This document shows positions 7,662 to 49,617 of a DNA stretch of 64,000 bases, piece by piece. The position numbers were made by a program, and so were the translations under genes. Positions within the stretch are counted from its first letter, which is position 1, and each line of letters opens with the position of its first letter. Under the pieces are notes generated by a model that saw only the letters and a list, made by a program, of their open reading frames with translations, was not told where the DNA came from and did not search any database. The stretch comes from Roseibium album (GTDB lineage Bacteria > Pseudomonadota > Alphaproteobacteria > Rhizobiales > Stappiaceae): the NCBI RefSeq assembly GCF_001404515.1, contig NZ_CXWE01000006.1, positions 1 through 64,000 of the forward strand, in the 5' to 3' direction.

Positions 7662-7689
7662 CGCGATGAATACTCCAGTAATTTGGCGA

Positions 7690-8644: not shown

Positions 8645-8720
<76 letters not shown>

Positions 8721-8827
8721 ATCCGTTGATTTGTCGGGGTGTATCCGCGTTCGCCGTCGGCGTCAAGAGACGAAAACCGTGATTTCCAGAGACTTGTGAA
8801 CAGTTCCATAATCGAGCGGTTTTGAAA

Positions 8828-9301: not shown

Positions 9302-9432
9302 AGGGACACCCTTTCCAAATCCGGTAACGGGACGACATCAAAGAAGCATCCTGCCTCTTGCCGATCAACGCACGTGAACGCGATCTGCCAACCACCCACC
9401 GGAAATACAACCGCGCGACAGGTTCGACAAAC

Positions 9433-9456
9433 AAAAAGGCCGAAACAAGTCCGGCC
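9433..9456 (-). terminator. Intrinsic terminator of the cold-shock gene
   Basis: On the minus strand GGCCGGA and TTTCGGCC form a stem around a short loop, followed directly by TTTTTG. It lies 30-55 bp after the stop codon of the cold-shock-domain gene. Confidence 0.65.
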
Positions 9457-9486
9457 GGGAGGTACGGAATAAATTTTCTGGTGAGA

Positions 9487-13051: not shown

Positions 13052-14626
13052 ATGTTCACACGAATGATCGCCGTGCTGGCAATACTGATAGCAGGGACTG
13101 CCCCGGCACTCGCCAAGCGCGTTGCCCTGGTAATCGGCAACGGCGCATACGAACACACGATACCGCTTCCGAACCCGTCGAATGACGCGGAACTGATGGC
13201 CGCCAAATTGCGCAGCCTCGGTTTTGAAGTCGTGGCGGGTCAGGACCAGACTTATAACGACATGCGCCGGTCCGTGCTGGATTTCGCGAAGAAGGCCTAC
13301 GGGGCCGAGATCGCGGTTCTGTTCTACGCCGGCCATGGCATGCAGGTAGGCGGTCAGAACCTTCTGATCCCGATCGACGCCAAGATCGAGGACGAAACCT
13401 CGCTCGATTTTGAAACGATCTCGGTCGACTTCATCATGCGCCAGATGTCCAAGGACGTGAAGGTGCAGATGGTTTTCCTGGACGCCTGCCGCGACAATCC
13501 GCTGGCACGCACGCTTGCGCGCCGTATGGGCCCAAGCCGTTCGGCAAACCTCGGTTCGGGACTTGCGGAAATCAAGGTTGAGGAAACCGGTGGCGAAGGT
13601 TCCGTGATTGCATTTGCAACCAGCCCCGGCGATGTAGCCCTTGACGGCGACGGCAAGAATTCTCCTTTCACCTCTGCCCTTATCCGCCATATCGATACGC
13701 CGAATGCGTCTATTCAGACAGTCATGACCCGGGTGACCGGTGACGTCTATGACGCAACGGAAAAACGCCAGCGTCCGTGGGTGAACGCTTCCCTGATCGG
13801 CGAAGTGTTCCTGAACAAGTCAACCGCTTCGGCGGAAGGCACGGAAGTGGCTTCACTGGGCACGACCACAACCACAGTTCCGGACCAGGCCGTCACCAAT
13901 GCGGCTGTGTCAGCGGCGGCGACCACTTCCCAGCCCAATCTCGATTGGGAACGTGAGAAGCTGATCTGGGAAGCAGCAAAGTCCAGTGACACGGTGGCCG
14001 ACTACAAATCCTACCTGGCGGCCTACCCGAAAGGTACGTTTGCGGATTTTGCTCGCAACTCGATCAAGCGTCTGAGCAACGGTGCGCAGGTTGCTGCGGT
14101 CAATCCGGCCACAACACCTGGTGCCGCCGCTGCTGCGAACCCGACAAACGGTGCTGCCGCGTCACTGCCGAACCCGCAGACTGCGATCCCGGGAACGGCC
14201 GAGACGGAAGCTGCTCTTGGCTGGAACCGGACTGCACGGCGGGAAGTGCAGACACGGCTGAACCTTGCCGGACACAATGTCGGGCGCCCCGACGGTGCTT
14301 TTGGTCCCAAGACCAGAGCCGGTGTCGTTGCCTGGCAGACGCAAAACGGAATGGTTCCGACCGGGTTTTTCACCGCGGCACAACATCTCCTGCTGAACTC
14401 GCAAACAACGGCTCAGTACACGGCCTATATTGCAGAGATCAAACGCAAGCAGCAGGCGGCCGCCACGTCCCGCAGCACAACAACACGCCGGGCGAACACC
14501 ACTCCGCAACGCACGACCAACACGACGCGTCGTACCAATAACGGTGGTGGTGGTCTCAACCCCGCAGGCGCAGCCTTTATCGGCGGCGTGGTCGGTGGAA
14601 TTCTTGGCGGCGCGATCGGCCGCTGA
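13052..14626 (+). CDS. Secreted caspase-like (peptidase C14) protein with peptidoglycan-binding-like domain
   Basis: The protein is 524 aa. A signal peptide (MIAVLAILIAGTAPALA) is followed by a caspase p20-type domain at about residues 23-250, with catalytic His95 in FYAGHGMQ and Cys146 in LDACRDNP. A linker carries WEREKLIWEAAKSSDTVADY, a helical repeat seen in such proteins. A PG_binding_1-like domain follows at about 388-450 (REVQTRLNLAGHNVGRPDGA, then GPKTRAGVVAWQ). The tail ends with a glycine-zipper segment (AAFIGGVVGGILGGAIGR) that may touch the membrane. Bacterial caspase homologues cleave after basic residues; the substrate here is unknown. A good ribosome-binding site (AGGACAGGAA) precedes the ATG. 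Confidence 0.85.
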   Translation: MFTRMIAVLAILIAGTAPALAKRVALVIGNGAYEHTIPLPNPSNDAELMAAKLRSLGFEVVAGQDQTYNDMRRSVLDFAKKAYGAEIAVLFYAGHGMQVGGQNLLIPIDAKIEDETSLDFETISVDFIMRQMSKDVKVQMVFLDACRDNPLARTLARRMGPSRSANLGSGLAEIKVEETGGEGSVIAFATSPGDVALDGDGKNSPFTSALIRHIDTPNASIQTVMTRVTGDVYDATEKRQRPWVNASLIGEVFLNKSTASAEGTEVASLGTTTTTVPDQAVTNAAVSAAATTSQPNLDWEREKLIWEAAKSSDTVADYKSYLAAYPKGTFADFARNSIKRLSNGAQVAAVNPATTPGAAAAANPTNGAAASLPNPQTAIPGTAETEAALGWNRTARREVQTRLNLAGHNVGRPDGAFGPKTRAGVVAWQTQNGMVPTGFFTAAQHLLLNSQTTAQYTAYIAEIKRKQQAAATSRSTTTRRANTTPQRTTNTTRRTNNGGGGLNPAGAAFIGGVVGGILGGAIGR

Positions 14627-14698: not shown

Positions 14699-15124
14699 TC
14701 AATCGAGTTTCAAACTCACACGTTTCATGTTCGTAGCCTTTGCGGCATCGAGAATATGAACCACCTGCTGGAAATCGGTTGCCTTGTGCGGGATAAGAAC
14801 GGCAGTTTCAGCCCCCGCTGCAGCCAGACGGTTCAGTTCGCTTCCAAGTTCACCAAGGGGTACCGGCAGGCCATTCACGATCAGTTCCGGGATATCCGAA
14901 CCCGCTCCCATTTTCAGGACGATGAGAACGGCCGGAGCGGTGGAAGTTCGCGAATTATCGGCGGCGCCAACACTTTCGCCACTCCCAAGGGCAACATCGA
15001 GCGGACGCCAGATACCGAATGTTGACGAGAGCAGGAAAAACATCACGAGGATGAAAATCACGTCGATCAGCGGCGTCAACGGGATGCGCCTGCGCTTTCC
15101 TACCGGGTTGTGGATCTGGATCAT
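14699..15124 (-). CDS. ExbD/TolR-family protein (first copy)
   Basis: The ATG at 15124 gives about 141 aa: a short basic cytoplasmic start (GKRRRIPLTPLIDVIFILVM) with the functionally important Asp in LIDVIF at the head of a single transmembrane helix, then a periplasmic domain ending VVHILDAAKATNMKRVSLKL. ExbD/TolR forms the ion-conducting stator with ExbB/TolQ and passes force to a TonB- or TolA-like partner. The gene faces the ExbB gene at 16266 rather than forming an operon with it. The longer frame to 15196 lacks the family pattern at its start. Confidence 0.88.
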   Translation of the reverse strand: MIQIHNPVGKRRRIPLTPLIDVIFILVMFFLLSSTFGIWRPLDVALGSGESVGAADNSRTSTAPAVLIVLKMGAGSDIPELIVNGLPVPLGELGSELNRLAAAGAETAVLIPHKATDFQQVVHILDAAKATNMKRVSLKLD

Positions 15125-15269
15125 CTGCGGCTTCTGGTTCTTGCAATTTCCGGCAACTCTGACCGCCACTTTCCAGCAGTTGCGCTCAAACCACAATGAA
15201 AAAAGGCAAATTGACCCAAGGCTCTCACTTGCTTAGCGTGAAATCATCAATGACTTCGAGTGACAATTC

Positions 15270-15728
15270 ATGGCAACGGCCTTTCAATCCAGTTTCCGAC
15301 CGTGCTTCGCAAGGAAGAAGACCAACACGGCAATCCGGCTCTTTCTTCTGCTGTTTGCCTGCGTGCTGGTTCCTCAGGCGGCTCAGGCAGGACTCAGGGT
15401 CTGCAATGGATCCGTCGATCTCGTGAATGTGGCGATAGGCTATGACACGGAAGACGGTTTACGGACCGAAGGATGGTGGACAATCACGTCCAATGCCTGC
15501 AGCCAGGTCCTTCAGGAACCGCTGAAGGCCAGCAACTACTACCTTCATGTCTCCGACGGTTTTGGCGAGAGCAGGCTCGGCGGCGATGTGACGCTTTGTA
15601 TCCGCGAAGAGAAATTTGTCCTGTTCGACGGAGATCAGTGCTGGCAACGGGGATTGATCGAAGCGGATTTTTTCAAGATTGAAACAGAAGGGGCTGAAGA
15701 CTGGACAGTGTTGTTGTCATATGACTGA
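15270..15728 (+). CDS. DUF1036 family exported protein
   Basis: The 152-aa protein has a signal peptide (IRLFLLLFACVLVPQAAQAG) and then the DUF1036 pattern: LRVCNGSVDLVNVAIGYDTE, GLRTEGWWTITSNACSQV, YYLHVSDGFG and CIREEKFVLFDGDQCWQRG. Paired cysteines suggest disulfides. DUF1036 proteins are small periplasmic proteins common in alphaproteobacteria, with no assigned role. It sits with the Exb genes upstream of the T6SS, so a link to envelope energy transduction is possible but unproven. Confidence 0.85.
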   Translation: MATAFQSSFRPCFARKKTNTAIRLFLLLFACVLVPQAAQAGLRVCNGSVDLVNVAIGYDTEDGLRTEGWWTITSNACSQVLQEPLKASNYYLHVSDGFGESRLGGDVTLCIREEKFVLFDGDQCWQRGLIEADFFKIETEGAEDWTVLLSYD

Positions 15729-15798: not shown

Positions 15799-16230
15799 AT
15801 GCGATTTTCGACGCAACTTTTTATGCTTGGTTATCTTTGCGCTGCGATTGCAGCACCTGCGCACGCACAGGAGCCAGCCGGTAAGATCAGTCTCGAACTC
15901 AATCATGTCCAGCCAACACAGGACGGCGGTTGCCGGCTTTCGATCATTGCGACCAACGGACTTGAACGTCCGATAAATCAATTGGGCCTGGAAATTGTCG
16001 CCTTTAACACCGAGGGGCTCGTCGACCAGTTCCTGCGCCTCGATTTCTCCCGTATTTCTGCAGGCAAGACAAAAGTTCTGCAATTCGACCTGGCTGGCAA
16101 GGCATGCGATGGCCTGTCCAGATTGCACATCAATGACGTACTGAACTGCGTCCCTGCAAGTGTCACGGATGTATACTGCCCCGATCTTCTGGATCTCAAG
16201 AACCGCACTCCAATCCAGTTCGGTGACTGA
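15799..16230 (+). CDS. Exported hypothetical protein next to exbB
   Basis: The 143-aa protein has a signal peptide (STQLFMLGYLCAAIAAPAHAQ) and a mature beta-rich domain (ISLELNHVQPTQDGGCRLSI, IATNGLERPINQLGLEIVAF, then KVLQFDLAGKACDGLSRLHI). Four cysteines suggest two disulfides. I do not recognise a family. It is 36 bp upstream of the ExbB gene on the same strand, so co-transcription and a shared job in the envelope are likely. Confidence 0.75.
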   Translation: MRFSTQLFMLGYLCAAIAAPAHAQEPAGKISLELNHVQPTQDGGCRLSIIATNGLERPINQLGLEIVAFNTEGLVDQFLRLDFSRISAGKTKVLQFDLAGKACDGLSRLHINDVLNCVPASVTDVYCPDLLDLKNRTPIQFGD

Positions 16231-16265: not shown

Positions 16266-16940
16266 ATGGTTGAATCGTCTTCTTCCCTGCTTGAACTGGG
16301 AGGGCCTGTTGTCCTTGTTCTCCTGGGGATTTCCGTGCTCGCGCTCGCTGTCATCCTTGCCAAGGCTTTCCAGCTTTCCAATGCCCGTGTCGGTCGGCAC
16401 AGTCTTGTGAGACAGGCAGTGACGATGTGGCGAACCGGAGAGCGTTCCAAGGCAACGCAGGCTCTGCTGAAGGACCGTTCGCTTTCGGCTGCCCTTGTCC
16501 GGAGCGCCATGGAAGCGATCCAGAAACTGGACGGTCAGCCATTGAGTTCGCAGGAACGGGACATTCGTGAAGAACGCCTGCGCGAAGAGATTTCCGCCAG
16601 AGCCGCCGACCGACTTTTCGGGCTCACCAGTTGGCTGAAGGCACTCGATCTCGTCACCCAGATTGCCCCCCTGCTTGGCTTGCTCGGGACCGTGCTCGGG
16701 ATGATCGAGACGTTCCAGACACTGCAGGAGTCCGGATCTTCCGCCAACCCGGGCACACTTGCGGGCGGGATCTGGGTTGCTCTTCTGACAACAGCCTGCG
16801 GTCTTGCGGTTGCCATACCGGTATCTGTCGCGGTGACTTGGTTCGAGACAAGACTTGAAAAAGAGCGCGCAGCTCTTGAGGTGCTTCTGACGGGTGTCTT
16901 CACAGCCGGTGCAACGAGCAACCAGTCTCCCTCATCGTGA
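16266..16940 (+). CDS. ExbB/TolQ/MotA-family proton channel protein
   Basis: The 224-aa protein has an N-terminal transmembrane helix ([20 protein letters not shown]), a cytoplasmic loop rich in Arg/Glu, and the conserved MotA_TolQ_ExbB block: [20 protein letters not shown] with the IETF signature, then the last helix ([20 protein letters not shown]). With ExbD it forms a proton-driven stator in the inner membrane. The 3' end overlaps the convergent TonB-like gene by about 9 bp. Confidence 0.92.
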
Positions 16941-18794
16941 AACCTTGAACGCAGAGAGGGAGTAAACGCCCGGTGACGCCAGAACATTCGCAATCCGTTC
17001 TGCCGGAAGCCTGCCAAACGAGCCTGGCTGTTTTTGCTTGGGCCTGTTCCAGACGGCCAGGATCAGCGCGGTTTCGCTCTGGCCACCGGTTATCAGCGTA
17101 ACCGGGATTGAAAATCGCCAGCCACCCAATGTCGCTGTACTCGTCTGAACCCGGACGAAGCTCCTGCCATCATGGATCTGACCGGCATCGTCAATAAGAT
17201 AGAGCTCCGGCGGTCCCTTTCCGTCCAGTTCAAGACCTGCCTCTTCCGCCTGCGCAATACGTCCGAGTGGCAAGTCACGCTGGATCACACCGGAAACCCT
17301 TGTACCGCTTGTCACGACGGTCCTGTCCAGCTCCACAAGACCCGGCGCTTCAACTCCGTTTGAAATACCAAGTGCATCAAGAAGAGCACATTGACGACCT
17401 GTGACCAGACGCACTTCAATATCAGCACCATATCCCTGATCAGTCGTGAAACGTTGATCAAAAAGAACGAACGGATCGATTGCAGATCCAAACGCGGTCA
17501 CGCGCGCGGTGTCCGTTCCAGCCGACATCACTGAAAGATGCGCGCAGCTTCCCGCATCGTAGTTGGCAACATAAGCCGAAACATTTGCCAGTGGATCAAT
17601 CGTGGCAACTTCATCTGGTGGCACGTTGGCCGTGGGATCAGACGATACAGGCGCAGCCGGTACGTTGGACGGGTTCGGATCGCTTGGATTTAGAGCAGGA
17701 AGATCCACTTCTGACGGTTGAACGGCAGCAATCTGTTCCTCAACGGGCCTGACAGGTTTCACGGTTCCGCTTTGAACCTGAACCGGGCTGGCACTTGAAC
17801 TTGGAACGACAACCGCAGACACCTGGCTCGCAGAAGAATTGCTTGAAACGACAACAGGACTGGATGCAACGGGAGCGGACGACACCGGTGCAACCGTCGA
17901 GCTTGATGTGGTGACAACAGCTGAACTTGTGCTCGGCGTTACCGTTTGACTGGCTACCACGACTGATTCTGTGCTCGATTGCGCAGGCCGAGTTGTCGTC
18001 GAGGAGCTGATGTCTGCAGGCTGAACCTGAGCCGGCACTACCGCTGCGACGTCAACCGGGAGCGGATTTGCCGCCTCGGAGGTCGGTGCAAGTGTTTCAA
18101 CAATCTGGCTTTCGGGCGTTGCAGGATCCTGTACCTGTTGCACAACATCAAGCGCGGTTTCTTCCGGCGCCGCTTGCACTATTTCGGTCACATTCGATTG
18201 GCCTGCGACAACGACCGTCTCCGGTGGTGTCACGGCTAAGATCTGCTGATTGGCAGCTTCAAGAGCCTCCGGCGTCTGTTCAGAAATGGTCTCAACGGCA
18301 ACGGCAGCGACGGCGTCAACCGAAGGAGTGGACACCGGCTGAGCGGAATTCGAATCGAGTTGTTCAGGCGCAACAGGATCGCTGCTATCGGCTAAACTCG
18401 GTGCCAGCGTCTCAGGCAAAACAGTGGCTGTGTAAGCTGCCTTTGTTGCCTCAGGTCTGACGGTTTCACTGCCATTCGGTATTGCCTGCTCCGGCGACAA
18501 GGGAATGACGGCGTCGGCTGCCGTTTCGTTCGCCTGGATGGCTGCTGCATCGGGTATCGCTGCCTCGGACACTACAGACTTCACCGCATCGGCAGATTCA
18601 AAAACCAGATCTTCGCTCTGAATGACAATTTTCGTTTCGACCGGTTCCGGAGGATCTGCGGACTGCCAGGTGAGTTGCGGCAGGCCGTAAATCAGGAAAG
18701 CCAGGTGGGCGGCAACCGACAGCACAAGAACAGCAGTCCAGACCAAAGCGGGGATACGTAGTTCACCGGCCTGATTGTAAACAGCGGCTGTCAC
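16932..18794 (-). CDS. TonB-like membrane-anchored protein with a C-terminal domain shared with PpkA
   Basis: The 620-aa protein has one N-terminal transmembrane helix ([20 protein letters not shown]), then about 360 residues rich in Ala, Val, Ser, Pro and Thr, which would form a periplasm-spanning linker. The folded C-terminal domain runs from about residue 402 to the end ([33 protein letters not shown]). This domain is not a standard TonB C-terminus. It is clearly similar to the C-terminal domain of the kinase at 19251-21161. The start codon overlaps the stop of the ExbD gene by 4 bp, so the two are translationally coupled. It is likely the force-receiving partner of the Exb stator. Confidence 0.75.
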
Positions 18795-19213
18795 GGTTCA
18801 TTCGCTTCAATGGCAATGAAAGACAGGTTCTTCACACCTGCAGATCGCATCTGTTGCGCAAGCTGCGCGACCGCTTCCATCTTTGCCCGGCGGTCAACCT
18901 GGACGGACATGTTGTCCTTGAATTCAGGGGATTGTGCCAGATAGTCAATCAAACCCTGTTCGTCGAGTTCAGTCCCAGCAAACCAAAGATTACCAGATCG
19001 CGTCAGGACAAGGCTGTTCTGGATGTTGCCCTTGCCCGACTCAGAACTCGTTTCCGCCCACTCGAATTCGTCGGGAAGCGGCGGACGTAGAGTTCCGGCA
19101 ACAAGCAGAAACAGAAGCAGCAGGAACACGACGTTGATCAAGGCCAGTGAACTGTCCGCTCTACGATGAGCCAACGGCTTGGGTACGTGGATCGGCTTCG
19201 TGTAGCGTTTCAT
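18791..19213 (-). CDS. ExbD/TolR-family protein (second copy)
   Basis: The 140-aa protein is basic at the start (MKRYTKPIHVPKPLAHRR) and has a single transmembrane helix (LALINVVFLLLLFLLVAGTL), then a periplasmic TolR-like domain (VQVDRRAKMEAVAQLAQQMR). The position of the usual channel Asp is Asn here (ALINVVF instead of LIDVIF), an important difference. Without the Asp the copy may not conduct protons itself and may need the other ExbD. It is the first gene of a pair with the TonB-like protein (4-bp overlap). Confidence 0.85.
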   Translation of the reverse strand: MKRYTKPIHVPKPLAHRRADSSLALINVVFLLLLFLLVAGTLRPPLPDEFEWAETSSESGKGNIQNSLVLTRSGNLWFAGTELDEQGLIDYLAQSPEFKDNMSVQVDRRAKMEAVAQLAQQMRSAGVKNLSFIAIEANEP

Positions 19214-19250
19214 TGCTGTTTCAATTCACTTCCCGCCCGAACACCGCAAC

Positions 19251-21161
19251 TCATGGCACCACTTTGACTGTCGTTGCCGTCGCCCGCAAGATCGGCAAGT
19301 CCTGCATGAGCGCGTTAAAATAGGCACCGGCCTGCTTTTCCTGGCGCCCGGACAGGTTCGCAACAAGATCTCTGCCCACCATTGAAATGATCAATCCGGT
19401 TTCTTCCGAGAGCGTTTTCAGGCTCAACGGTACGACGAACCCTGCCCCGCCGTCATCCGACTGCAGATATGGAGACAGGTTGACAACCTGACCGGTGCTC
19501 GACACGAACAAAAGCCCGAGTTCACCCGTCGACGGATCGTAACCGGAAATACGACCGGCCATGTTTTCTCCGTTCGGTACCACGGTTCGCTGCATATCAA
19601 GCTGGAGTTCGGTCTTTTCATTTCCCTGTGGTGTGGCCCGCAGGAATGCGATGGCGGGACATTGTGCATCGCTGACAAGATTCACCTGTATCTTGGCTTC
19701 AAACCCCTGCGACTGGGTAAAATCGCTGTCGAATGTGATAAAAGGTGGCGTTCTTGACGCGAACCCCTCGATCTCGGCCGAATTGCCGGCGACCTGGACG
19801 GGCTGCAAATACATGCAGTCGCCGGCCTGGTAGTTGCTGACGTAATTCCGGATACGGTCTGCCGGTTTCAAAGTCTCGTCCGGCTGGGTCCCATTCTGCA
19901 AATCATTGTCCGGCAAGACGGGCGGCGATACGGCAATATCAGTCGAGTCCTTGACAGGCGGGTTCTCGATTCGCGGATCCGGCAGAACCGGTTGGGTATC
20001 CTGGCCAGAGTTGCCGGACGAATCCACGTTGATATCGTTACCGCCCTGCGCCACGTCAGTATTGTTCTGATCCGTTGGTTGGGCGGGCCTGTCCGGCGCA
20101 TTTTCACGAGGCTGTGCCACAAGAACCGGCTTCTGATTCTGCTCCGGCAGGTTTTGCCCGACGACGAAGTAAACAGCTGCTGCGCCGACGCCTGCAAATC
20201 CCAGCAGGGAAAATGCAACGAGTACCCGGCGCCCCCACCGGACCGGCGAAGGTGGCTCGTCCAGAACAGACTGCTCGGGAGGAGGTTCGGACGACCTGAT
20301 AATCGTTTTGTCCTCGACGGGCAGGCGCATGGGCGCCCCAAGCGTCCATTCCGCGATTTCTGACATCGACGACGGTCGGTGTGCCGGGTCCGGTTGGAGC
20401 ATTGCCTCAAGCAGCGGCCGGAAACGATTGTCGACACCGTCGAGCGAGGGAACAATCCGACGCTTTTCCACCATTTCGACCTGGGTACCGCCCATGTCCG
20501 TCTGCCTGCCTGTCAGGCTTTCGGCAATCACGAGCCCCAATGAATATATGTCGCTTCTTGCCGTGACCTTGCCGCCAAACAGGCCAACCTGCTCGGGAGA
20601 CATGTAGTTTATCTTGCCAGCGAGTCCGTCGCCGATGATTGTGGGTCCGGCCTTGTTCGCACGGGAAATTCCGAAGTCGATGATTTTTGCCTGACCGACA
20701 TCACTGTTTTGAAGAATGATATTGTCCGGCGACAAATCGCGATGGATGACCTCCCGATCATGGACCGCCTGCAATGCAGAGGCCAGTCTGACGACAAGTC
20801 TGTAAACCGCCTCGGGCTCGAGCGGCCCCGCCTCCAGCCGTGTTTTCAAGGAGGGCCCGCCAACGAATTCCATCGCCAGGTAATAAACGCCGAGCGTCGG
20901 TTCCTTTGCGAAAACAAAGTACTGCGTCAATGCATCGTGTTTCAGCTTGCGCAGAATTTTGGCTTCGCGCTTGAACAGGTCGAGGATCATGGGATCCTTG
21001 GCAAAATTGGCCAGCAAGATCTTGATCGCGACCGGATCCCCGCTTTCCACGTCCCGGGCACGGTACACTGTCCCTATACCACCGTCGGCGATATGCTCTT
21101 CAATTTCATAAAGATTGTTGAGCCGAGTACCACCAGGCAACAAATGGTCGTCAGGATTCAT
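19251..21161 (-). CDS. ppkA: T6SS serine/threonine kinase PpkA-like with extracytoplasmic C-terminal domain
   Basis: The 636-aa protein has an N-terminal kinase domain at about residues 18-275: glycine loop HIADGGIGTVYRA, ATP Lys47 in VAIKIL, catalytic HRDLSPDN (Asp142) and DFG at 162-164. A juxtamembrane segment contains EDKTIIRSSE (Thr286). A single transmembrane helix lies at about 313-334, followed by an acidic Pro/Asn-rich linker. A folded domain runs from about 437 to 636 and resembles the C-terminus of the TonB-like neighbour. PpkA phosphorylates T6SS partners to turn secretion on. It overlaps the phosphatase gene by one base (TGATG) and lies in the tagF-pppA-ppkA order seen in Imp-type clusters. 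Confidence 0.9.
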   Translation of the reverse strand: MNPDDHLLPGGTRLNNLYEIEEHIADGGIGTVYRARDVESGDPVAIKILLANFAKDPMILDLFKREAKILRKLKHDALTQYFVFAKEPTLGVYYLAMEFVGGPSLKTRLEAGPLEPEAVYRLVVRLASALQAVHDREVIHRDLSPDNIILQNSDVGQAKIIDFGISRANKAGPTIIGDGLAGKINYMSPEQVGLFGGKVTARSDIYSLGLVIAESLTGRQTDMGGTQVEMVEKRRIVPSLDGVDNRFRPLLEAMLQPDPAHRPSSMSEIAEWTLGAPMRLPVEDKTIIRSSEPPPEQSVLDEPPSPVRWGRRVLVAFSLLGFAGVGAAAVYFVVGQNLPEQNQKPVLVAQPRENAPDRPAQPTDQNNTDVAQGGNDINVDSSGNSGQDTQPVLPDPRIENPPVKDSTDIAVSPPVLPDNDLQNGTQPDETLKPADRIRNYVSNYQAGDCMYLQPVQVAGNSAEIEGFASRTPPFITFDSDFTQSQGFEAKIQVNLVSDAQCPAIAFLRATPQGNEKTELQLDMQRTVVPNGENMAGRISGYDPSTGELGLLFVSSTGQVVNLSPYLQSDDGGAGFVVPLSLKTLSEETGLIISMVGRDLVANLSGRQEKQAGAYFNALMQDLPILRATATTVKVVP

Positions 21162-21925
21162 CAGCGGGCTTCTCCTTCACCCCGAGAGATACGATCTATG
21201 TCCACGATAACGACTGTCACATTATCAGTGCCACCCTTTTCCAACGCACCGTCCAGCAATCCCCTTGCTGCCGACCTTTGAGCACCTTCCATCAGGAAAG
21301 TTTCAATCACCGCGTCCTCGAGATGTCCGGTCAGTCCGTCGGAACACAACAAGAATCGATCTCCAGCCCTGAGGTTTCCGGATACAAGCTCAAGTTCGAG
21401 ATCCAGGCCCGACCCTATTGCCCTTGTGATCACGTGCCTCCTGGAGAAGTTTCTTGCTTCTTCTTCGGTCAATACGTTCTGGTCAACAAGTTCCTGAACT
21501 TCGGTATGATCAGTTGTCAGTTGCTCCATCTGGCCGCTCCTGAACCGATAGACCCGGCTGTCACCGGCCCAGAGACATGCAAAGTTGGATTCAAAAGTCA
21601 GAAGGGCCGCAATGGTTGTTCCCATGGCTGCGCCGTTGGCATTGGTCGAGGCTCTCTCAATTTGCTCCTTGGCATCGATGACGCGACCTTCGAACTGGTC
21701 CAGAAGATCCACCGCACTCAATGGCATCCTTATTGTCGTGAGCGCATCCTTGACAAGATTGGACGCAATCGCTCCTCCCTTCATGCCGCCGGCGCCATCC
21801 ATAACGGCGAATATACCTTTTGATTCATCACAAAAGAATGCGTCCTGATTTTCGTCACGTACACACCCCACATGTGTAAGCCCGATTGAAAGTCCCCGCA
21901 CTGCCTCATGTTCTGGCTGCATCAT
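21161..21925 (-). CDS. pppA: T6SS protein phosphatase PppA (PP2C/Stp1 type)
   Basis: From the ATG at 21925, which overlaps the tagF stop as ATGA, the protein is about 254 aa. PP2C metal-binding motifs are all present: THVGCVRDENQDAFF, FAVMDGAGGMKGG, LLCSDGLTGHLED and GGTDNVTVVIVD. The enzyme removes phosphate from Ser/Thr and counteracts PpkA, resetting the T6SS. A longer frame to 22087 is only a shadow of tagF. There is no membrane segment. Confidence 0.92.
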   Translation of the reverse strand: MMQPEHEAVRGLSIGLTHVGCVRDENQDAFFCDESKGIFAVMDGAGGMKGGAIASNLVKDALTTIRMPLSAVDLLDQFEGRVIDAKEQIERASTNANGAAMGTTIAALLTFESNFACLWAGDSRVYRFRSGQMEQLTTDHTEVQELVDQNVLTEEEARNFSRRHVITRAIGSGLDLELELVSGNLRAGDRFLLCSDGLTGHLEDAVIETFLMEGAQRSAARGLLDGALEKGGTDNVTVVIVDIDRISRGEGEAR

Positions 21926-22605
21926 GTTCGATGATCCTCCGGATGGTATCGCCCATGGTCTTTCCCTACCAATTTGTTGCCGGCTTCTTCTGCACCGAAT
22001 GACTCCGGCAAAAGCAACCAGCGAAATGCTGTTGCGTCCGGTAAACCGGCGCAATTGAAAGCAAACACCTGCCGGCCCGCCCGGCACCAGAACAACGAGC
22101 TAATTTTGTCCGTTGTCCCAGCATCCGCCGCCAACGACTTGCCATCTGCTAAGTCCTTGGCCCCTCCGCTGCCGGAGATGTCGGCGAGCCCACTGACTGC
22201 CTTCTGAAAATCCTTCAGACTTGCGTCTTCTTCGAGCGCTCCGAGCAGCACTGCCTCGACTTCATCAAACCAGTCGTCCGACGGTCGCTCATCATTTTCA
22301 GAAGGAGATGAGGCGACGGCAATCGTTAAGGGGAACTTTCGACCAACCTTGTCGACGCTTGGCATCAGGGCGCCGCCGATTGCCTGGGTAAAAGGAGCAC
22401 TCCCGTCTACCGGTTCCAGCCAAAAACGCCAGACGGGCATCGTCATATAGGTTTCTTCCCATCGAGAGCCGAGGAGTTGTCTGGAACTGCCCAGTCCCTT
22501 CATCAGAAACGGCTCCCACAGGTTCAGGAATCCCATGGGACAATTACCGACGACAAAGTCGGCCCTGTCCGGCAATTTGCCGAAATATCCCTTCTTTCCG
22601 CTCAT
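21922..22605 (-). CDS. tagF: T6SS-associated protein TagF (ImpM)
   Basis: The 227-aa protein begins GYFGKLPDRADFVVGNCP, the TagF N-terminal signature, and keeps WEETYMTMPVWRFWLEPV and GVLMPSVDKVGRKFPLTIA-like segments (here GGALMPSVDKVGRKFPLTIA). The C-terminus has the FWCRAGRQVFAFNCAGLP block. In other bacteria TagF represses T6SS post-translationally, and it may be fused to PppA. Here they are separate but translationally coupled. The ATG lies 11 bp after the end of tssM. Confidence 0.92.
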   Translation of the reverse strand: MSGKKGYFGKLPDRADFVVGNCPMGFLNLWEPFLMKGLGSSRQLLGSRWEETYMTMPVWRFWLEPVDGSAPFTQAIGGALMPSVDKVGRKFPLTIAVASSPSENDERPSDDWFDEVEAVLLGALEEDASLKDFQKAVSGLADISGSGGAKDLADGKSLAADAGTTDKISSLFWCRAGRQVFAFNCAGLPDATAFRWLLLPESFGAEEAGNKLVGKDHGRYHPEDHRT

Positions 22606-22615
22606 GCGGCAATCT

Positions 22616-25600
22616 TCAAAAGCTTGTCGGGCATTTGAAGTCTCCGACGGCCGAGAGGAAAAACGGGTTTGGTTTGGTGCGAAGTGTCACGGTGAATGCC
22701 ACCTGCCTGCCACCCAGGGTTTTCCGGATCACGAACTTGTTCTGGCCAGAGCTGACCCTGTTGGACCGCACGAACCGGTAAAAGGCCCAATCACCGTGGA
22801 TTTCCTGACGGGATCTGTAACCCGGCACTTCCGGCTGTATTACCAGCACAACACGCGGGGTCGCCGTATTGCTCGGCCAGTCGAAACTTGCCGGCAGCGG
22901 TTCAATATCCGCGTTGAATCCAGGCCCACGCGTCACAAGCACGAGGTTTCCATTGACTTCGAGACTGGCAGCATCAGCCTGCTGGGACAATGCGCGCGGC
23001 ACGACCTGCAATCCGATCGAGGGAAACGCGTTTCCGGTCGGGAAAAACGCCTGCTTGATCAGATCGGCACGCTCGAACTGGCGAAGCGTTGCATTTGAAA
23101 GCCTGTCAGCCTGTGCCACCCCCGGTTTCCAGTTCCAGGGCCGTGACGACGTATCCACCAGCGCCTTCAGGTTCTGATCGAAGAATTGCTGCATGATGCC
23201 GTTTGGTGAAAAAAGTTTGGCGAACTCCGTCATTGGAACTTCAGAACGTCCATTCGTGAACGGGTAATTGCGCGTCACGATCCGCTGGCACGCCTCGACC
23301 ACCTGCGACTTGAGTTTTTCGTTCAGCTGAGTGATCGAAGTCTCCTTGAATTCCTCATCGAATTCCTTGGCAGACTGGAGAATGAGCTTGTCAAAAGGCT
23401 GTGGGAAGCGGGTCGCATTGCTTCTCAGTAATGATGCCTGGATCTGAACGTTGGAATTTGCGGTTTCACTCTGGACCGGGTTGTTTGCGACAACCAGAAG
23501 ATTGTCCAGGATATTCTTGAAGTTGACCAACAGCGCGTCAATTTTCCGGCTGTTTTCTCCCTCAACCAGGACGTGATACGGTCGGAAGTGGTCCTCGATC
23601 CCTTTGCCAGGAATGATCACAGGACCGCCTCCACCGGCTACGGCTCCAAGCGCGTCGGAAACACCCCCGGGTGCCAGCGCCTGAACACCGGCTTCAATTC
23701 CTATTCGTTTCAGGCCACCAGCCCGATCGAGAACATACTGCTGAAATACTTTCTGGGCTGCCGACTTGCCGGCCTGCGCTGCGTTTCCGCCATCAAGCGA
23801 CGCTGTCAGCCCCTCCTGTGACAGGTCTTGAGTGAGCAATGTCTCATTGCGAATGCTTTCCAGCAATTGAACGACCGGAGACGTCGGCGCCGAGACAGCT
23901 TGAAGTGTCGTATAGAGCGGCTTGTCGTTTCGCATGGACTTGAATTTCAGATTTCCAAGCGCTTCCTCCCAGGCTTCAATGAAATCTTTCGTGTAAAGCG
24001 CCAGGACCTCTGCCGGCAGAGACTGGTACTGATCGGAAAAAGCGTCCACTTCGCCAATTTCGCCAAACACCCATCTGTCACGTTCAAGCTCTTCCCGGAT
24101 GCCGGCCAGATTCGGCAGAACAGACAGGTGAAAGCCCGGGTAGGTGTAGAATCTGTCAACCAGAACCGTGTCCAGGGTGTCGCCGTTTTCCGTTTCGAAC
24201 ACGGTTTCCATATCCGGACCGCCGCGTTGCTCCGCGATCCAGTCTTCGCTTGCAAGCCCCTTGGATCTTGACTTCAACAGCGCATAGCCCCGTTCGGAAA
24301 GACTGACCCTTCCAAGTTCCCGCTGCACTTCCGCGACAAGAACGCCGTCGAGTTGATCGGTCAGCACATTGCCGCCGAAATCGAGATCGAGCATCGCGGC
24401 TATGTGCGAATTGAGTTCGTTTCGAAGAACCTGTCCCTGTGGTCCGGGGAAACTCTGCAGAAAGTCCGCTCGGAAAGAATTCTTGATCTGGTCCTTGTCG
24501 ATTTCAGGCGCGTCACCGGCGACCATGCGATACAGCTTTATCAGATTGTAAAGCGACTCAATGTCCTGTCCTCCCGGGCCTGTCCGGTTGTCTAGGACGT
24601 CTGTCATCTGCTTTTCTATCCGAAGCAACAAGCGTGGACGCAGCAAGCGCTCCAGACCGCTTCGATAGGACGTGATCCCGGCAGCCTGAAGACGTTCGCG
24701 CTGGCTCAACCCGAATTTTTCCATGAAAGGCGTCGGATCGTTTCGGGTATCATAGCCTACCGGAAGACTGCGCAGCAGCGAGAGAATGTAAGCAGAATCG
24801 CGCAAGCTATCATCGCGCACGACCCTTTGTTCAAGAACGCCCTCACCTTCCGCGCGGACTGCAGCCACAGCCTTTGCCGTTTCATCGATCAGAGCCCGGT
24901 TGTTCAGGTAACTGATCGTCCACAGACTTCCCAGCCCCAGGGTCGCCAGGACAATCACGGTGTAGGCTGCAATTCTTGCAGCCGTCGCCATTCGGACCAC
25001 TCGACGATTATGCGTGACCCAACCGGCTTCCCCTATGATGACCTGGTTGAGCAAATCGCGAAGAAAATAGCTCTTGCCTTGCCCCGAAAGCGCGGCGGCC
25101 TGGTACGAGGTACCGAACGCCTGGCTCATTGACCCGATAACCCGGTCTATCGCGGTTCCTGTCTGGGTTCCCGATGTGAAGTAGAACCCGCGCAGAACAG
25201 CATTCGGATAGTACCGGCTGGGTTCGAATATGGCATTTAGAAATCCGGTTATCCGGTCCCTGAGCGCCGCAACCTGTGTCGGAAAACCATACAGCATCAG
25301 GCGCGCCCGCGGATCGGGTTCCTCCTGAAGCCTGTCCGCCAGTTCCTCATTCAGGCGTTCGATCAAGAGATCGAATTCCGCCGGAGTCTCGGCGACCATG
25401 TTCTTGTTCTTTTCGCGCGTCTGAAAAGTTGCGCCCCAGACGAGATTCCGTCGGCTTTCCGGATAGGATCCGAAAAACTCCATGAAACCGGCAACCGTAT
25501 CGGCTTTCGTGAAGATGACATAGACCGGGAAGTCGATCTTCAATGTCTTGTAAAGTTCAATCAGCCGTGCCCGGATCGCGTCTGTATGCTCCTTGAGTTC

Positions 25601-26269
25601 CGCGTCCGAAAGCGTCATCAGGTCTTCCAGACTGATCGAAACCATGACCCCGTTGACCGGCTGTCGTGGTCGGGCCTTGCGCAAAATGTTCAGAAAACCA
25701 AGCCACGCTTCCCGATCGTGTTCTTCGTCGGAATCCTGTGTCGTGTAGCGGCCGGCTGTATCGATCAGAACTGCGTTTTCAGCAAACCACCAATCGCAAA
25801 AGCGCGTTCCACCAAGACCTTCGAGTTTCTGCGCTTCGCCCTTTCCCCTGGAGTTGGCGAACTTCAGCCCGGAATGCATCAAAGCCGTGGTCTTGCCTGC
25901 GCCCGGAGGGCCAATCATCAGGTACCAGGGTAAATCATAGAGATATGTGCGCGTGTTGCCGCTGGCTGTCTTCAGGGTCTTCAGCGCATCTTTCATGCGC
26001 TCAGACAGGATCTGGAGATCCTCTTCACTCGCCTTTGGCTGAAGAATCTCCTGTTCCAGGGCCCTGTTGGCCGCAATACGCTTGTAAATTCTGTACCCGG
26101 TCCAGCCACCGATCGTGAGAAGGATCAAGAAGATCAGCAGCAGTCTCACCCAGAGCGGTTCAAACGGGCGCACGCCGGCAATGCCAAGAAAAGGCCCTCC
26201 GAACCAGATCAGAGCAATGAGGGCAAGAATTCCAATCACTATTGCCGTTATTCCGAGCCAGAATTTCAT
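22616..26269 (-). CDS. tssM: T6SS inner-membrane protein TssM (IcmF/ImpL)
   Basis: The 1217-aa protein has two N-terminal transmembrane helices (ITAIVIGILALIALIWFGG and LLLIFLILLTIGGWTGYRI). A cytoplasmic domain has a complete Walker A (GPPGAGKTT, about 120-128) and DTAGRYTTQD. A third helix lies near residue 430, and a long periplasmic part ends with VVLVIQPEVPGYRSRQEI and GDWAFYRFV. TssM spans the envelope and joins TssL to the outer layer. It is expressed with tssL (40-bp gap) upstream and tagF downstream. No tssJ lipoprotein gene is present, as in Agrobacterium. Confidence 0.97.
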   Translation of the reverse strand: MKFWLGITAIVIGILALIALIWFGGPFLGIAGVRPFEPLWVRLLLIFLILLTIGGWTGYRIYKRIAANRALEQEILQPKASEEDLQILSERMKDALKTLKTASGNTRTYLYDLPWYLMIGPPGAGKTTALMHSGLKFANSRGKGEAQKLEGLGGTRFCDWWFAENAVLIDTAGRYTTQDSDEEHDREAWLGFLNILRKARPRQPVNGVMVSISLEDLMTLSDAELKEHTDAIRARLIELYKTLKIDFPVYVIFTKADTVAGFMEFFGSYPESRRNLVWGATFQTREKNKNMVAETPAEFDLLIERLNEELADRLQEEPDPRARLMLYGFPTQVAALRDRITGFLNAIFEPSRYYPNAVLRGFYFTSGTQTGTAIDRVIGSMSQAFGTSYQAAALSGQGKSYFLRDLLNQVIIGEAGWVTHNRRVVRMATAARIAAYTVIVLATLGLGSLWTISYLNNRALIDETAKAVAAVRAEGEGVLEQRVVRDDSLRDSAYILSLLRSLPVGYDTRNDPTPFMEKFGLSQRERLQAAGITSYRSGLERLLRPRLLLRIEKQMTDVLDNRTGPGGQDIESLYNLIKLYRMVAGDAPEIDKDQIKNSFRADFLQSFPGPQGQVLRNELNSHIAAMLDLDFGGNVLTDQLDGVLVAEVQRELGRVSLSERGYALLKSRSKGLASEDWIAEQRGGPDMETVFETENGDTLDTVLVDRFYTYPGFHLSVLPNLAGIREELERDRWVFGEIGEVDAFSDQYQSLPAEVLALYTKDFIEAWEEALGNLKFKSMRNDKPLYTTLQAVSAPTSPVVQLLESIRNETLLTQDLSQEGLTASLDGGNAAQAGKSAAQKVFQQYVLDRAGGLKRIGIEAGVQALAPGGVSDALGAVAGGGGPVIIPGKGIEDHFRPYHVLVEGENSRKIDALLVNFKNILDNLLVVANNPVQSETANSNVQIQASLLRSNATRFPQPFDKLILQSAKEFDEEFKETSITQLNEKLKSQVVEACQRIVTRNYPFTNGRSEVPMTEFAKLFSPNGIMQQFFDQNLKALVDTSSRPWNWKPGVAQADRLSNATLRQFERADLIKQAFFPTGNAFPSIGLQVVPRALSQQADAASLEVNGNLVLVTRGPGFNADIEPLPASFDWPSNTATPRVVLVIQPEVPGYRSRQEIHGDWAFYRFVRSNRVSSGQNKFVIRKTLGGRQVAFTVTLRTKPNPFFLSAVGDFKCPTSF

Positions 26270-26309
26270 TGACGTCGCCTTGTACTTCGGTTGCCCCGGA
26301 GATTAAAAA

Positions 26310-27917
26310 TCAGTTGTCAATCACCAGTCCCTTGGATGGTGGTTTCAAAAACACTTCGACCCGCCGATTGAGTGCCTTGCCTTCACGGTTGGTGTTGGGA
26401 GCTACGGGTTCGTCCGCGCCACGTCCCTCGACCTCGACCCTGTCCGGCGTCTGCAATAGGGCCTGCATTACAGCCGCGACGGATTTCGCCCGTTCGACGG
26501 ACAAATGCCAGTTTGTCGGAAAGCGCGGATTGTTTCGGATCGGATCGCTGTCGGTATGGCCAACGACGAGAATATCGCCTTCCATCTGGTCAAGCGTTTG
26601 GCTGACCTGTTCGACGAGAAGCTGAAACTCGGGGCGCAGCGTTGCTGCGGCCACATCAAACTGCGCGCGCATCCGCAGCATTATGGCGGGTCCGGCTTGA
26701 GAAATCTCCAATCCGTCAATGCCGGCAAGCTGCTCTGCAACCGTGTCAATCGGTGCATCATCCGGTGGTGCCGGCGGCGGTGGCGGCTTCGGTTGGTAAC
26801 CTTCCCGAGCCAGCTCGAGCGGTCCGGTCGGATAAAGAGCCGACGTGCGGCCTGCCAGGACCTCGCTGCCGCTTGCAAGCAGCAACATCAACGTGACATA
26901 TCCGCCGAGCAGCAACGCGCTGGCAACGGCTGCGACCGACCAGATAGGAATTGAAAATCCGGTGCGTTTCTGAAGCAGGTCCAGTCCGCGCCAGTGTGGT
27001 GAAAGATCGTCACCCGGACGGGGCCGGACGCGTCTCAGGATTTCGTGCAGGTCCCGCCGCTCACGCTCCAGTCCCTGCTGACCACCCTGAATCGCACGGT
27101 ACTTTCCGTAAAACCCGAGCGACAAACAAGAATGCATGACTTCCAGAACACCATAGTTTCGTCCCGGATCCTGCTTGGCCTTCTCAAGAACCTGAAAGAA
27201 CTCCACGCCACCGGTTGCCTGTCCGAAGAACTGGGTCAGCATGGAATACTGCGTCCATTGATGTCTTCCGGCGGACGGTAGATTCTGAACGATGTCGTCC
27301 GATGTGGCGCATAGTGCATATGCGGCCGACTGTATCTGGTCGTCGGTGATGCCAACGTTGCGCAAGTCTTTTTCAAAGGCCTTGATGGCATTGTAGACAT
27401 CGCGCATCAACGCGTCGAACTGCGCATCGGTCATTGTCAGATGCAGCCGTCCCAAAAGGAGAAGCAGCGGCGCTGCGGCACGGGAAATCGGATTCCGATT
27501 TGCGACGCGGATCTGGTTTATGTCCGGAGTTTGGGCCAGTTGTCCGGCTGGTTGTGCTCCTGGAGCGGCAGCGGGTTGGACTGGTTGTTGAGGCGGCGGC
27601 GCCGAAGGCTGAGCCGGTGGCGGCGTCCGGATATCGGGTGCTTTCTGCTGGCCGTATTCATAACCTGCCGGGGTCGGTGCATAAGGGTCAGGACCCGACC
27701 CGCGTCCTCCCTGCCAGGGATCGGGAGCACCGGGAGGCTGTGGTGATGGCGGTGCCTGTGGCGGCTGGCCCTGTGCGGGCGGTGGTGGAGGTTGCTGCGG
27801 CTGTTGCGGCGCTCCCGGCTGTGACGTTTCGCTCCAACGCCCCCCGGGGTTGGGCCGAACAATCGTTTTACCCTTTCGCTTGGAAACACCGAAGGGATCG
27901 TCATTGTCCGACATCAT
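26310..27917 (-). CDS. tssL: T6SS protein TssL (DotU/ImpK) with C-terminal OmpA domain
   Basis: The 535-aa protein has a Pro/Gln-rich N-terminus (residues 30-130) preceded by KRKGKTIVRPNPGGRW, where Thr18 matches the known PpkA phosphosite region of Agrobacterium TssL. The DotU domain spans about 145-320 (RNPISRAAAPLLLLLGRLHL). A transmembrane helix lies at about 326-347. An OmpA/MotB peptidoglycan-binding domain lies at about 405-525 (GDILVVGHTDSDPI, then LNRRVEVFLK). It anchors the membrane complex to the cell wall. The ATG overlaps the tssK stop by 4 bp and has GGGAGGGAC upstream. Confidence 0.96.
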   Translation of the reverse strand: MMSDNDDPFGVSKRKGKTIVRPNPGGRWSETSQPGAPQQPQQPPPPPAQGQPPQAPPSPQPPGAPDPWQGGRGSGPDPYAPTPAGYEYGQQKAPDIRTPPPAQPSAPPPQQPVQPAAAPGAQPAGQLAQTPDINQIRVANRNPISRAAAPLLLLLGRLHLTMTDAQFDALMRDVYNAIKAFEKDLRNVGITDDQIQSAAYALCATSDDIVQNLPSAGRHQWTQYSMLTQFFGQATGGVEFFQVLEKAKQDPGRNYGVLEVMHSCLSLGFYGKYRAIQGGQQGLERERRDLHEILRRVRPRPGDDLSPHWRGLDLLQKRTGFSIPIWSVAAVASALLLGGYVTLMLLLASGSEVLAGRTSALYPTGPLELAREGYQPKPPPPPAPPDDAPIDTVAEQLAGIDGLEISQAGPAIMLRMRAQFDVAAATLRPEFQLLVEQVSQTLDQMEGDILVVGHTDSDPIRNNPRFPTNWHLSVERAKSVAAVMQALLQTPDRVEVEGRGADEPVAPNTNREGKALNRRVEVFLKPPSKGLVIDN

Positions 27918-29248
27918 CGTCCCTCCCGAATGGCATAGAATTCAAGCTGAAGGTCCGGCCAGTTGCCGGAAAATTGCAGCCCGATCGCGGAGTCCTGGCT
28001 GAATTCGCGCCAAAGCGGTGTCGTCTTGTCCAGTCGGAAATAGACCCGATCGGTAAGAGCCCGGATCTGAGCGGGCGGGACCGGCATGTGAATTAGCGGT
28101 ATACCCGGCAGATTTGAATAGACGATCTGGCGCATCTGGCCGAATGGACCGACCTTGAACAGCCGCGGAAATTCGTTCTGGATCTCGGTGAGCGGACGAC
28201 GTGCCGCAACTTCGATGACAAAACTCGCCTGCGAGAAAAGATTGCGGTCGACAATCGTCGACTTGAAGGCATTGGGGGCAAGCTGTTCCAGAGGGAGGCG
28301 GATTGCACGGCGGTCGTAACCGGCAGACAGAAACGCCTGTATATCGGCGAGCACCGGCTTGAAGATGTCATGCAGACGGTCATGATCGTAGACCGGATAG
28401 TTTCGGGCCCGCCGTTCTTCTGTTGCGAATGTGGCCAGTTCACCTGCCAGCTGGATAAATTCCGAATAGACCCTTTCAGGATGCACATAAGCCGATTTGC
28501 GAAGATGCATCAGTTGCGGATGGAGCCGATTGAGCATTTGCAGCGTCAGGTAATCGAAATTCTGTAATCCGCCGCCTGCCGACGTATCGGCTGCATATCG
28601 CGCAAGTTCACTCAGTTTCCTTTCCACCCAGCCAATCACCGAGTCGATCCATCCGGTCACGACGGGATGTACGTGGCAGGCAAGAACCGGCGGCGCAAAC
28701 GTGCCGTCGGTGATCACGATACGGTCCTTGATTTCGGTAATACGGGCGACCGGCAGACAGACATGTCCCGGATGGGGCGTGGCCCGTATCGAATACATCA
28801 GCCGCGGATGTGCGACATCGATTTCCTCTTCCTGCCGAATGGCCGAGGTCGAATCGATAATCGTCTCGCGACCCTGAACGTAGCGCGTCGCCGCATCTTC
28901 CCTGCCGCTGGCCACCTCGACAGCGTTGACGGTCGTCTCCGGGATTCCGAGCCAGACGATCTGGCCGGCTGAATCTTCGGGAACATCAATGGCTGGTGGC
29001 GGCGTTCCGTCGGCTGGAAAGTTGAAAACGGTGCCATCCGGAAAAATACCGCGTCCGTAACGCAGCGCAAATCGACATTGCTGCCCGACATCCTGATCGA
29101 TTTCAATCTCTGAAAAGCCCCAAGGATATGAGGAGGCAAGCCTGATACGTTCATCCAGCAAATGTTCGGCGTACCGGTCGCTCTGCTGCAGATGATGCGG
29201 CCTCAAAAACAGGCCTTCGGTCCATGCAACCTTGCTATACCACGACAT
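27914..29248 (-). CDS. tssK: T6SS baseplate protein TssK (ImpJ)
   Basis: The 444-aa protein starts KVAWTEGLFLRPHHLQQSDR, the TssK signature for its shell-like N-domain, and retains HPGHVCLPVARITEIKDRIV, LHPQLMHLRKSAYVHPERVY and YDRRAIRLPLEQL. TssK is a trimeric adaptor that links the baseplate to TssL and TssM. Length is normal. The gene overlaps tssL by 4 bp. Confidence 0.97.
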   Translation of the reverse strand: MSWYSKVAWTEGLFLRPHHLQQSDRYAEHLLDERIRLASSYPWGFSEIEIDQDVGQQCRFALRYGRGIFPDGTVFNFPADGTPPPAIDVPEDSAGQIVWLGIPETTVNAVEVASGREDAATRYVQGRETIIDSTSAIRQEEEIDVAHPRLMYSIRATPHPGHVCLPVARITEIKDRIVITDGTFAPPVLACHVHPVVTGWIDSVIGWVERKLSELARYAADTSAGGGLQNFDYLTLQMLNRLHPQLMHLRKSAYVHPERVYSEFIQLAGELATFATEERRARNYPVYDHDRLHDIFKPVLADIQAFLSAGYDRRAIRLPLEQLAPNAFKSTIVDRNLFSQASFVIEVAARRPLTEIQNEFPRLFKVGPFGQMRQIVYSNLPGIPLIHMPVPPAQIRALTDRVYFRLDKTTPLWREFSQDSAIGLQFSGNWPDLQLEFYAIREGR

Positions 29249-47487: not shown

Positions 47488-47510
47488 AGCGTTAGTTCTC
47501 GCAAGCGTTC

Positions 47511-49505: not shown

Positions 49506-49617
49506 CAACGTATCCTGGCTGAAGCAGGTATTTTTTTGTTTAAGTCGCTGTCCTGATCATGCCGGATGACGCCACCAGATGCAAAATGCGGCTGTCATGA
49601 ATTGGTCGCAGGCTTTC

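Follow-up and report, generated by a model that had tools for sequence, protein, structure and literature searches.

A Ton-type motor module whose TonB-like rod shares its outer domain with a type VI secretion kinase in Roseibium album

The window considered here, a 64,000-nucleotide stretch of the Roseibium album genome (contig NZ_CXWE01000006.1, positions 1 to 64,000), holds a type VI secretion system (T6SS) gene cluster and, adjoining its Ser/Thr kinase gene, a module of genes resembling the TonB-ExbB-ExbD (Ton) motor. A preliminary description of this DNA had proposed that the kinase and a TonB-like protein, which we call the rod, end in the same extracytoplasmic domain of about 200 residues, referred to below as CDOM. 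This raises the question of why a secretion kinase and the movable arm of an envelope motor should share their outer part. The coordinates given there for both genes are correct (Table 1), and BLASTP, shuffling, profile-profile comparison and AlphaFold all agree on the common domain. We describe the evidence for it, the motor to which the rod belongs and the distribution of both CDOM forms, and propose that the motor may act on the periplasmic arm of the kinase pathway.

A common domain in kinase and rod

BLASTP aligns residues 426-636 of the kinase with residues 396-620 of the rod over 206 columns (76.3 bits, 29% identity, E 9e-22). The Smith-Waterman score of the two C-termini is 189, compared with a mean of 32.7 (standard deviation 5.5) and a maximum of 74 in 2000 shuffles, which rules out a chance resemblance. 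Comparison of a profile of 12 kinase domains with one of 19 rod domains, each alignment holding its own window row, gives a probability of 99.9% (E 9e-37, 206 columns); in a control, the best match of the CDOM profile among ten other window proteins has an E of 0.64. The motifs NYxAGxC, PFxxFDxxFT, QGxxAxI, QC and ETxLI are present in both proteins as had been described, and hydropathy gives each protein a linker and a single membrane span, at residues ~313-334 of the kinase and 17-38 of the rod. The sole cysteines, 449 and 501 in the kinase and 417 and 469 in the rod, are spaced by 52 in both, and the two cysteines of CDOM are invariant.

AlphaFold2 models of the rod domain (pLDDT 87.1, pTM 0.85) and the kinase domain (pLDDT 91.5, pTM 0.87) have their main elements in the same order, a comparison made by element order and without superposition; they differ in an extra helix at 112-120 of the rod model and a short helix at 177-182 of the kinase model. 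The C-terminal half is predicted to adopt an immunoglobulin-like fold (an Ig-type beta sandwich), and this half fills the match lists of both models in fold searches, with no family listed for the N-terminal half. By sequence, the best match of CDOM to a solved structure has an E of 0.6. Within the loci examined, and leaving fragments aside, CDOM was seen solely in kinases and these rods.

Two further observations concern the occurrence of the domain. The genome of the window contains a weak third CDOM-like match (L003, G000:C4:716744-717097, E 0.005) with two TGA codons in the aligned stretch, and in genome G002 (L088) the kinase gene is split between two frames that overlap, 7632-9158 for the kinase part and 9035-9697 for the CDOM part.

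The window kinase has the layout expected of the PpkA of this T6SS, in that a kinase domain is followed by one transmembrane span, a linker and a C-terminal CDOM (residues ~430-636) that is probably periplasmic, the topology being predicted from hydropathy only; its gene stands beside those for PppA, TagF, Fha and TssKLM. Kinase, ExbD2 and rod form a compact minus-strand run, in which ExbD2 lies downstream of the kinase with a gap of 37 nt and the GTG start of the rod overlaps the ExbD2 stop codon. The genes for ExbB, a small secreted protein, a DUF1036 protein, ExbD1 and a caspase-like protein adjoin this run.

A TonB-type rod and two unlike ExbDs

The N-terminal transmembrane segment has the His typical of TonB in 34 of 35 rods and a Ser four residues earlier in 26 of 35; the window rod reads SVAAH. 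Rods with the His but without the Ser have Ala at the Ser position, and for the single rod without the His (L118) the segment chosen by the script came from the ExbD2 frame that overlaps the rod. For the TonB of E. coli, Ser16 and His20 are described as contacting ExbB (PMC12215075). The rods are also encoded together with ExbB and ExbD, as is typical of TonB. The TonB C-terminal domain (PF03544) gave no Pfam match in the window rod or in the rods of L079, L100 and L216, and whole-protein scans of the window rod returned no Pfam and no NCBIfam match. CDOM as a diverged TonB_C domain is ruled out at the profile level (hhalign probability 0.9%).

A scan of genome contigs with ExbD2, using a pattern that demanded Asn at the membrane Asp position, gave 59 loci, 22 of which have a CDOM rod (L105 and L106 are one genome, and L098 matches G081). 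Many of the other loci contain an operon of the form ExbB-ExbD1-ExbD2-TonB, for example in Alcanivorax, Marinimicrobium, Rhodovulum and Tistrella, and Pfam finds TonB_C in all seven of the fourth genes tested. Since these related operons end in an ordinary TonB, and CDOM is unrelated to TonB_C, the end domain of the rod has most likely been replaced by CDOM. Plasmid records label the rod 'hypothetical protein'; for the ExbDs they give either this same label or 'biopolymer transporter ExbD'.

In a tree of 81 CDOM sequences, the 7 rod and 7 kinase domains of the genus form one group and the remaining 23 rod domains one clade (99/95 for each). Four of an initial 85 sequences had been dropped, namely L062 (a copy of L090), L098 (a copy of L079) and the rod and kinase of L093 (near-copies of those of L091), and L065 and L088_9035 were assigned to the kinase side by hand. 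The approximately unbiased (AU) test allows all rod domains to form a single clade (p 0.255), and CDOM may have been recruited to the rod either once or twice. A recent tandem duplication of the kinase end is not supported: rod and own kinase are 24-29% identical in the genus, and the pair occurs in other orders too. In other genomes with both forms, the rod's own kinase ranks 9th to 44th of 50 kinases by identity.

The module as a whole consists of ExbB, ExbD1, ExbD2 and the rod, and is often accompanied by a DUF1036 protein, the small secreted protein and either a caspase-like or an M23 protein; the preliminary description had noted neither ExbD1 nor the Asn of ExbD2. We take the membrane Asp of ExbD to be the equivalent of E. 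coli Asp25, with a role in proton coupling. ExbD1 has Asp at this position, and ExbD2 has Asn and so is without the Asp of a proton-coupling subunit, in 19 of 19 loci that were found without the Asn pattern (the window; L083-L088 of the genus; L062, L075, L079; L207; L216, L217, L218, L220; L234, L236, L238, L239). The 59 loci of the ExbD2 scan were excluded from this count because they had been selected by the Asn pattern.

The third transmembrane segment of the window ExbB reads GIWVALLTT at the site that presumably corresponds to Glu176 in E. coli. Module ExbBs carry Val, Ala or Thr here, and in the TonB_C-type operons the residue is Glu in L121, Gln in L135 and Val in L123 and L139. Operons with ExbB, an Asp and an Asn ExbD, and TonB, all without CDOM, occur in gammaproteobacteria and other alphaproteobacteria (for example L115, L117, L121, L123, L134, L135 and L139); a mixed ExbD pair is thus seen within seemingly ordinary Ton systems, among loci where the Asn belonged to the search pattern.

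Table 1. Position and annotation of genes in the kinase and motor region of the window
Feature	Position	Strand	Remarks
Caspase-like protein with peptidoglycan-binding domain	13052..14626	+	PF00656 E 2.3e-43, PF01471
ExbD1	14699..15124	-	PF02472 E 6.6e-15 (scanned as 14699-15142); membrane Asp (LIDVIFILV)
DUF1036 protein	15270..15728	+	PF06282 E 2.8e-30
Small protein	15799..16230	+	signal-peptide-like start (by eye), several cysteines; no Pfam match
ExbB/TolQ/MotA-type proton channel subunit	16266..16940	+	PF01618 E 2.2e-27
TonB-like protein (rod)	16932..18794	-	N-terminal transmembrane segment with SVAAH, long low-complexity linker, CDOM aa ~400-620
ExbD2	18791..19213	-	PF02472 E 1.3e-10; Asn at membrane Asp position (LINVVFLLL)
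PpkA-type Ser/Thr kinase	19251..21161	-	PF00069 E 5.7e-39; kinase domain aa 18-266
PP2C phosphatase (PppA-type)	21161..22087	-	PF13672; NF033484 below its cut-off
TagF	21922..22605	-	PF09867
TssM, TssL, TssK	22616..29248	-	Pfam/NCBIfam matches
Fha (TagH-type)	29326..31089	-	PF20232, PF00498

Distribution and co-occurrence with type VI secretion

On the kinase side, the window T6SS cluster encodes VgrG, Fha, TssK, TssL, TssM, TagF, the PppA-type phosphatase and the kinase, and on the other side an ImpA_N protein, TssB, TssC, Hcp, TssE, TssF, TssG and a ClpV-type ATPase. The association of CDOM with such clusters was examined in genome samples of increasing breadth; the order and genus samples were searched with one query sequence (for the order, the domain of the window kinase) and no profile. 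CDOM is present in 29 and TssK in 47 of 297 genomes of the order, and CDOM occurs in 28 of the 47 TssK-positive genomes versus 1 of the 250 TssK-negative ones (Fisher p 1.2e-25, kinship ignored). A strong ExbD2 match with Asn (E < 1e-40) was found in at least 6 of the 297, the best 13 candidates per genome being scored. All six fall within the 29 CDOM genomes; five have TssK, and G081, which is 83% complete, is the one without.

Among 25 genomes of the genus, including that of the window, two CDOMs occur in 14, the strong ExbD2 match in the same 14 and TssK in 21. Kinase and rod were inspected in full in 7 of the 14 (the window and L083-L088), and the other 7 were assigned by identity and frame length. 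The 11 genomes without CDOM comprise four without TssK, six with TssK solely outside the score range of this T6SS, and G022, where a TssK inside that range lies on a small contig. Genomes G001, G007, G008, G009, G014 and G021 have TssK without CDOM or a strong Asn-bearing ExbD2 match, and represent other T6SS types. Scoring the best 7 candidates per genome, we found CDOM in at least 2 of 385 genomes of the class sample (the window's own and G585) and in at least 19 of 398 of the phylum sample, 14 of the same order and 5 from one other family of the class; both kinase and rod forms are present in all five of the latter. The module recurs alongside T6SS genes in Hyphomicrobiales and, carried by plasmids, in Paracoccus, Sagittula and Rhodovulum.

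Among the genomes and plasmids that bear a rod, 46 in all, 42 also yielded the kinase form. The 46 are made up of 14 genomes of the genus, G048, G081 and G199, 20 named genomes, 5 genomes of the other family and 4 plasmids examined of 16 matching. The 42 comprise the 14 of the genus, G048 and G199, 10 with the kinase at the same locus, 7 with it elsewhere in a T6SS cluster, the 5 of the other family and the 4 plasmids (Sagittula, Thioclava, Rhodovulum and Paracoccus aminophilus); in three of them (G048, L092 and L137) the match is a CDOM fragment without a kinase domain, assigned by position. The kinase form was not found in the genomes of L094 and L109 by genome search, or in G081 by the order-sample search; the fourth genome, that of L148, was outside these searches. 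On the plasmids of Paracoccus aminophilus, Sagittula and Rhodovulum, the stretch with the module also holds tss genes, and the Thioclava plasmid has a CDOM kinase with no tss gene within the 22 kb viewed. In the stretch viewed in Tritonibacter, the kinase form stands without the module.

Kinase and rod loci are unlinked in seven Jiella and Aurantimonas genomes, lying on different contigs in six and ~2 Mb apart in G326, and they are more than 1.1 Mb apart in G956 and G980. Linkage alone therefore does not explain the pairing. The survey of related clusters called for by the preliminary description thus finds the pair co-occurring in Hyphomicrobiales and on Rhodobacterales plasmids, unlinked loci included.

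Neighbouring genes offer candidate partners for the domain. The small secreted protein is a recurrent neighbour of the module ExbB, and also of some TonB_C-type operons, and DUF1036 adjoins many rods. Of 34 stretches that hold a CDOM kinase without a rod, some of them from genomes with a rod at another place, nine have DUF1036 at a midpoint-to-midpoint distance of no more than ~2.1 kb from the kinase (L064, L068, L069, L070, L073, L074, L077, L215 and L224). Because of this proximity to the CDOM kinase in rod-less stretches, DUF1036 is the first candidate ligand. All nine stretches also hold an M23 peptidase gene, with no motor module in the stretch. M23 peptidase genes are module neighbours in other genomes, and caspase-like genes neighbour part of the related loci; in Mesorhizobium ciceri WSM1271, which has the kinase form without the module in the stretch, DUF1036 and M23 genes follow the kinase and a caspase gene is near. 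In the window, a peptidoglycan-binding protein and an M23 peptidase are encoded at 46426-49508, at the opposite end of the T6SS cluster. On the Rhodovulum plasmid, a gene of 8238 nt for a very large hypothetical protein (L220, 11683-19920) lies between the motor module and tssK.

A proposed motor input to the PpkA pathway

In described systems the periplasmic domain of PpkA is the site of input, probably through TagR in Pseudomonas and through RtkS in Serratia and TssW in Acidovorax (PMC6082577, PMC12607579). In Agrobacterium the pathway acts on TssL; orthologues of TagQRST are lacking, and the signal is left open in the account concerned (PMC3953482). The homology of the two CDOMs, the TonB-type transmembrane segment of the rod, the way CDOM follows T6SS, the co-occurrence of kinase and rod, including in trans, and the tight gene run in the window lead us to propose, with a probability of about 0.5, that the module is an auxiliary motor of the Ton type which acts on the T6SS threonine-phosphorylation (PpkA) pathway at its periplasmic arm; the binding, the signal and the force are what we infer. 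The CDOMs of PpkA and rod would share a periplasmic partner or bind one another, as the preliminary description had supposed, with the DUF1036 protein as first candidate partner and the small secreted protein as second. Through the rod, the outer domain of the kinase would be presented a second time, on a movable arm that the motor drives, and the energised motor, or the free rod, would pull on or compete for the common partner, so withdrawing or delivering it. The change of partner could alter the dimerisation and autophosphorylation of PpkA, then the phosphorylation of Fha or TssL, and finally T6SS assembly. The motor would fill the role of TagQRST in Pseudomonas, or of RtkS or TssW, with a proton-driven input, and the timing of T6SS assembly may be under the control of cell energy or of the state of the envelope. 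We put forward only tentatively, and with some doubt, the stronger version in which the asymmetric motor, with its Asp and Asn ExbDs, is powered by the proton-motive force and mechanically gates the Ser/Thr kinase via a rod that, by bearing the kinase's sensor domain, competes for the ligand or pulls on it, so that envelope tension or energy state controls T6SS assembly.

Several observations weigh against a motor acting on PpkA. Of the 29 CDOM genomes of the order, 23 have no strong Asn-bearing ExbD2 match among the best 13 candidates per genome; CDOM kinases are thus common without the motor, which cannot be needed for all of them. No TssK was detected in four rod-bearing genomes (L094, L109, G081 and L148). 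The preliminary description had presented kinase and TonB-like protein as a pair, and while their co-occurrence is conserved, these 23 genomes and the three TssK-less genomes that have a rod and in which no kinase form was found speak against a strict pairing. Against DUF1036 as the ligand, the remaining 25 of the 34 kinase-only stretches have no DUF1036 gene as close as ~2.1 kb, and none was seen in the rod loci L075, L091, L093, L094, L109, L131, L148 and L218; contig ends truncate the rod loci L079/L098 and L096. With Asn in ExbD2 in place of the Asp that carries protons, it is uncertain that proton flow drives the motor. The module travels with its T6SS in the genus and in most of the other loci, where their linkage may be hitchhiking.

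Other explanations of the shared domain draw on parts of the same evidence. CDOM could serve to dock kinase and rod at one and the same fixed site, on the T6SS envelope complex or on peptidoglycan, the motor helping the machine to cross the wall or outer membrane with no kinase signalling. The near confinement of CDOM to T6SS genomes in the order sample agrees with this, as does the recurrence of cell-wall proteins nearby (M23 peptidases, a lytic-transglycosylase-like protein identified by eye in L220, and the peptidoglycan-binding caspase of the window); however, module and T6SS can be unlinked, and the rod is present where TssK was not detected, and we regard docking as rather unlikely. That the module is an independent envelope motor with a task of its own, CDOM being a reusable periplasmic sensor placed in both kinase and rod and the T6SS link only partial, would account for the TssK-less rod genomes, three of which (L094, L109 and G081) gave no CDOM kinase, and for L135, where a TonB-dependent receptor gene directly follows the TonB_C-type operon. 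The restriction of CDOM to kinases and rods in the loci examined, fragments aside, and the finding of a rod without a kinase form only in those three genomes, speak against such independence, which is improbable.

Direct contact between the two CDOMs, in which the rod caps or clusters PpkA through like-domain pairing, would fit the grouping of the genus rod domains with their own kinase domains, as co-evolution or exchange would give. Yet one clade of all rod domains is compatible with the tree by the AU test, and elsewhere the rod's own kinase ranks low by identity; this is the least probable of the explanations considered.

An accessory motor acting on PpkA can be compared with several known systems. 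Like Ton, the module has ExbB and ExbD family proteins and a rod with a Ser/His transmembrane segment, a linker and a periplasmic end domain, and it has related operons with TonB_C; unlike Ton, it has CDOM in place of TonB_C, two unlike ExbDs and an association with T6SS. The AglR-AglQ-AglS gliding motor of Myxococcus also combines one ExbB-type channel subunit with two different ExbD/TolR proteins (PMC3169522), whereas the CDOM rod and T6SS kinase found here have no counterpart in the available part of that account, in a comparison that did not include the ExbD residues of AglRQS. As in the TagQRST-PpkA pathway of the P. aeruginosa H1-T6SS, where this is shown, an envelope module is proposed here to act upstream of PpkA (PMC6082577, PMC12607579, PMC3953482). 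That pathway is described as using a TagS/TagT inner-membrane complex, the lipoprotein TagQ, and TagR, in contrast to the Ton-like motor and its putative link to PpkA here. The proposed action of a partner on the periplasmic domain of PpkA also resembles RtkS-PpkA in Serratia (PMC6082577) and TssW-PpkA in Acidovorax (PMC12607579), where the partner is a periplasmic or outer-membrane protein. RtkS is reported to depend on DsbA (PMC6082577), and CDOM has its two invariant cysteines. Neither a motor nor a domain common to regulator and kinase appears in the parts of the RtkS and TssW accounts available (PMC6082577, PMC12607579). The preliminary description knew of no T6SS with such a kinase and TonB-like pair, and we likewise found none described in the literature searched, most subscription papers lying outside its reach.

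Taken together, a conserved motor that bears the kinase's own outer domain makes the activation of PpkA in alphaproteobacterial T6SSs a testable question. The module indicates that a TonB rod can receive a new end domain, and its natural ExbD pairs of Asp and Asn bear on the workings of stator motors with two ExbD-type subunits. If true, mechanical gating of the kinase would add a new class to the known forms of kinase regulation and put a Ton/Tol-type motor to a new use.

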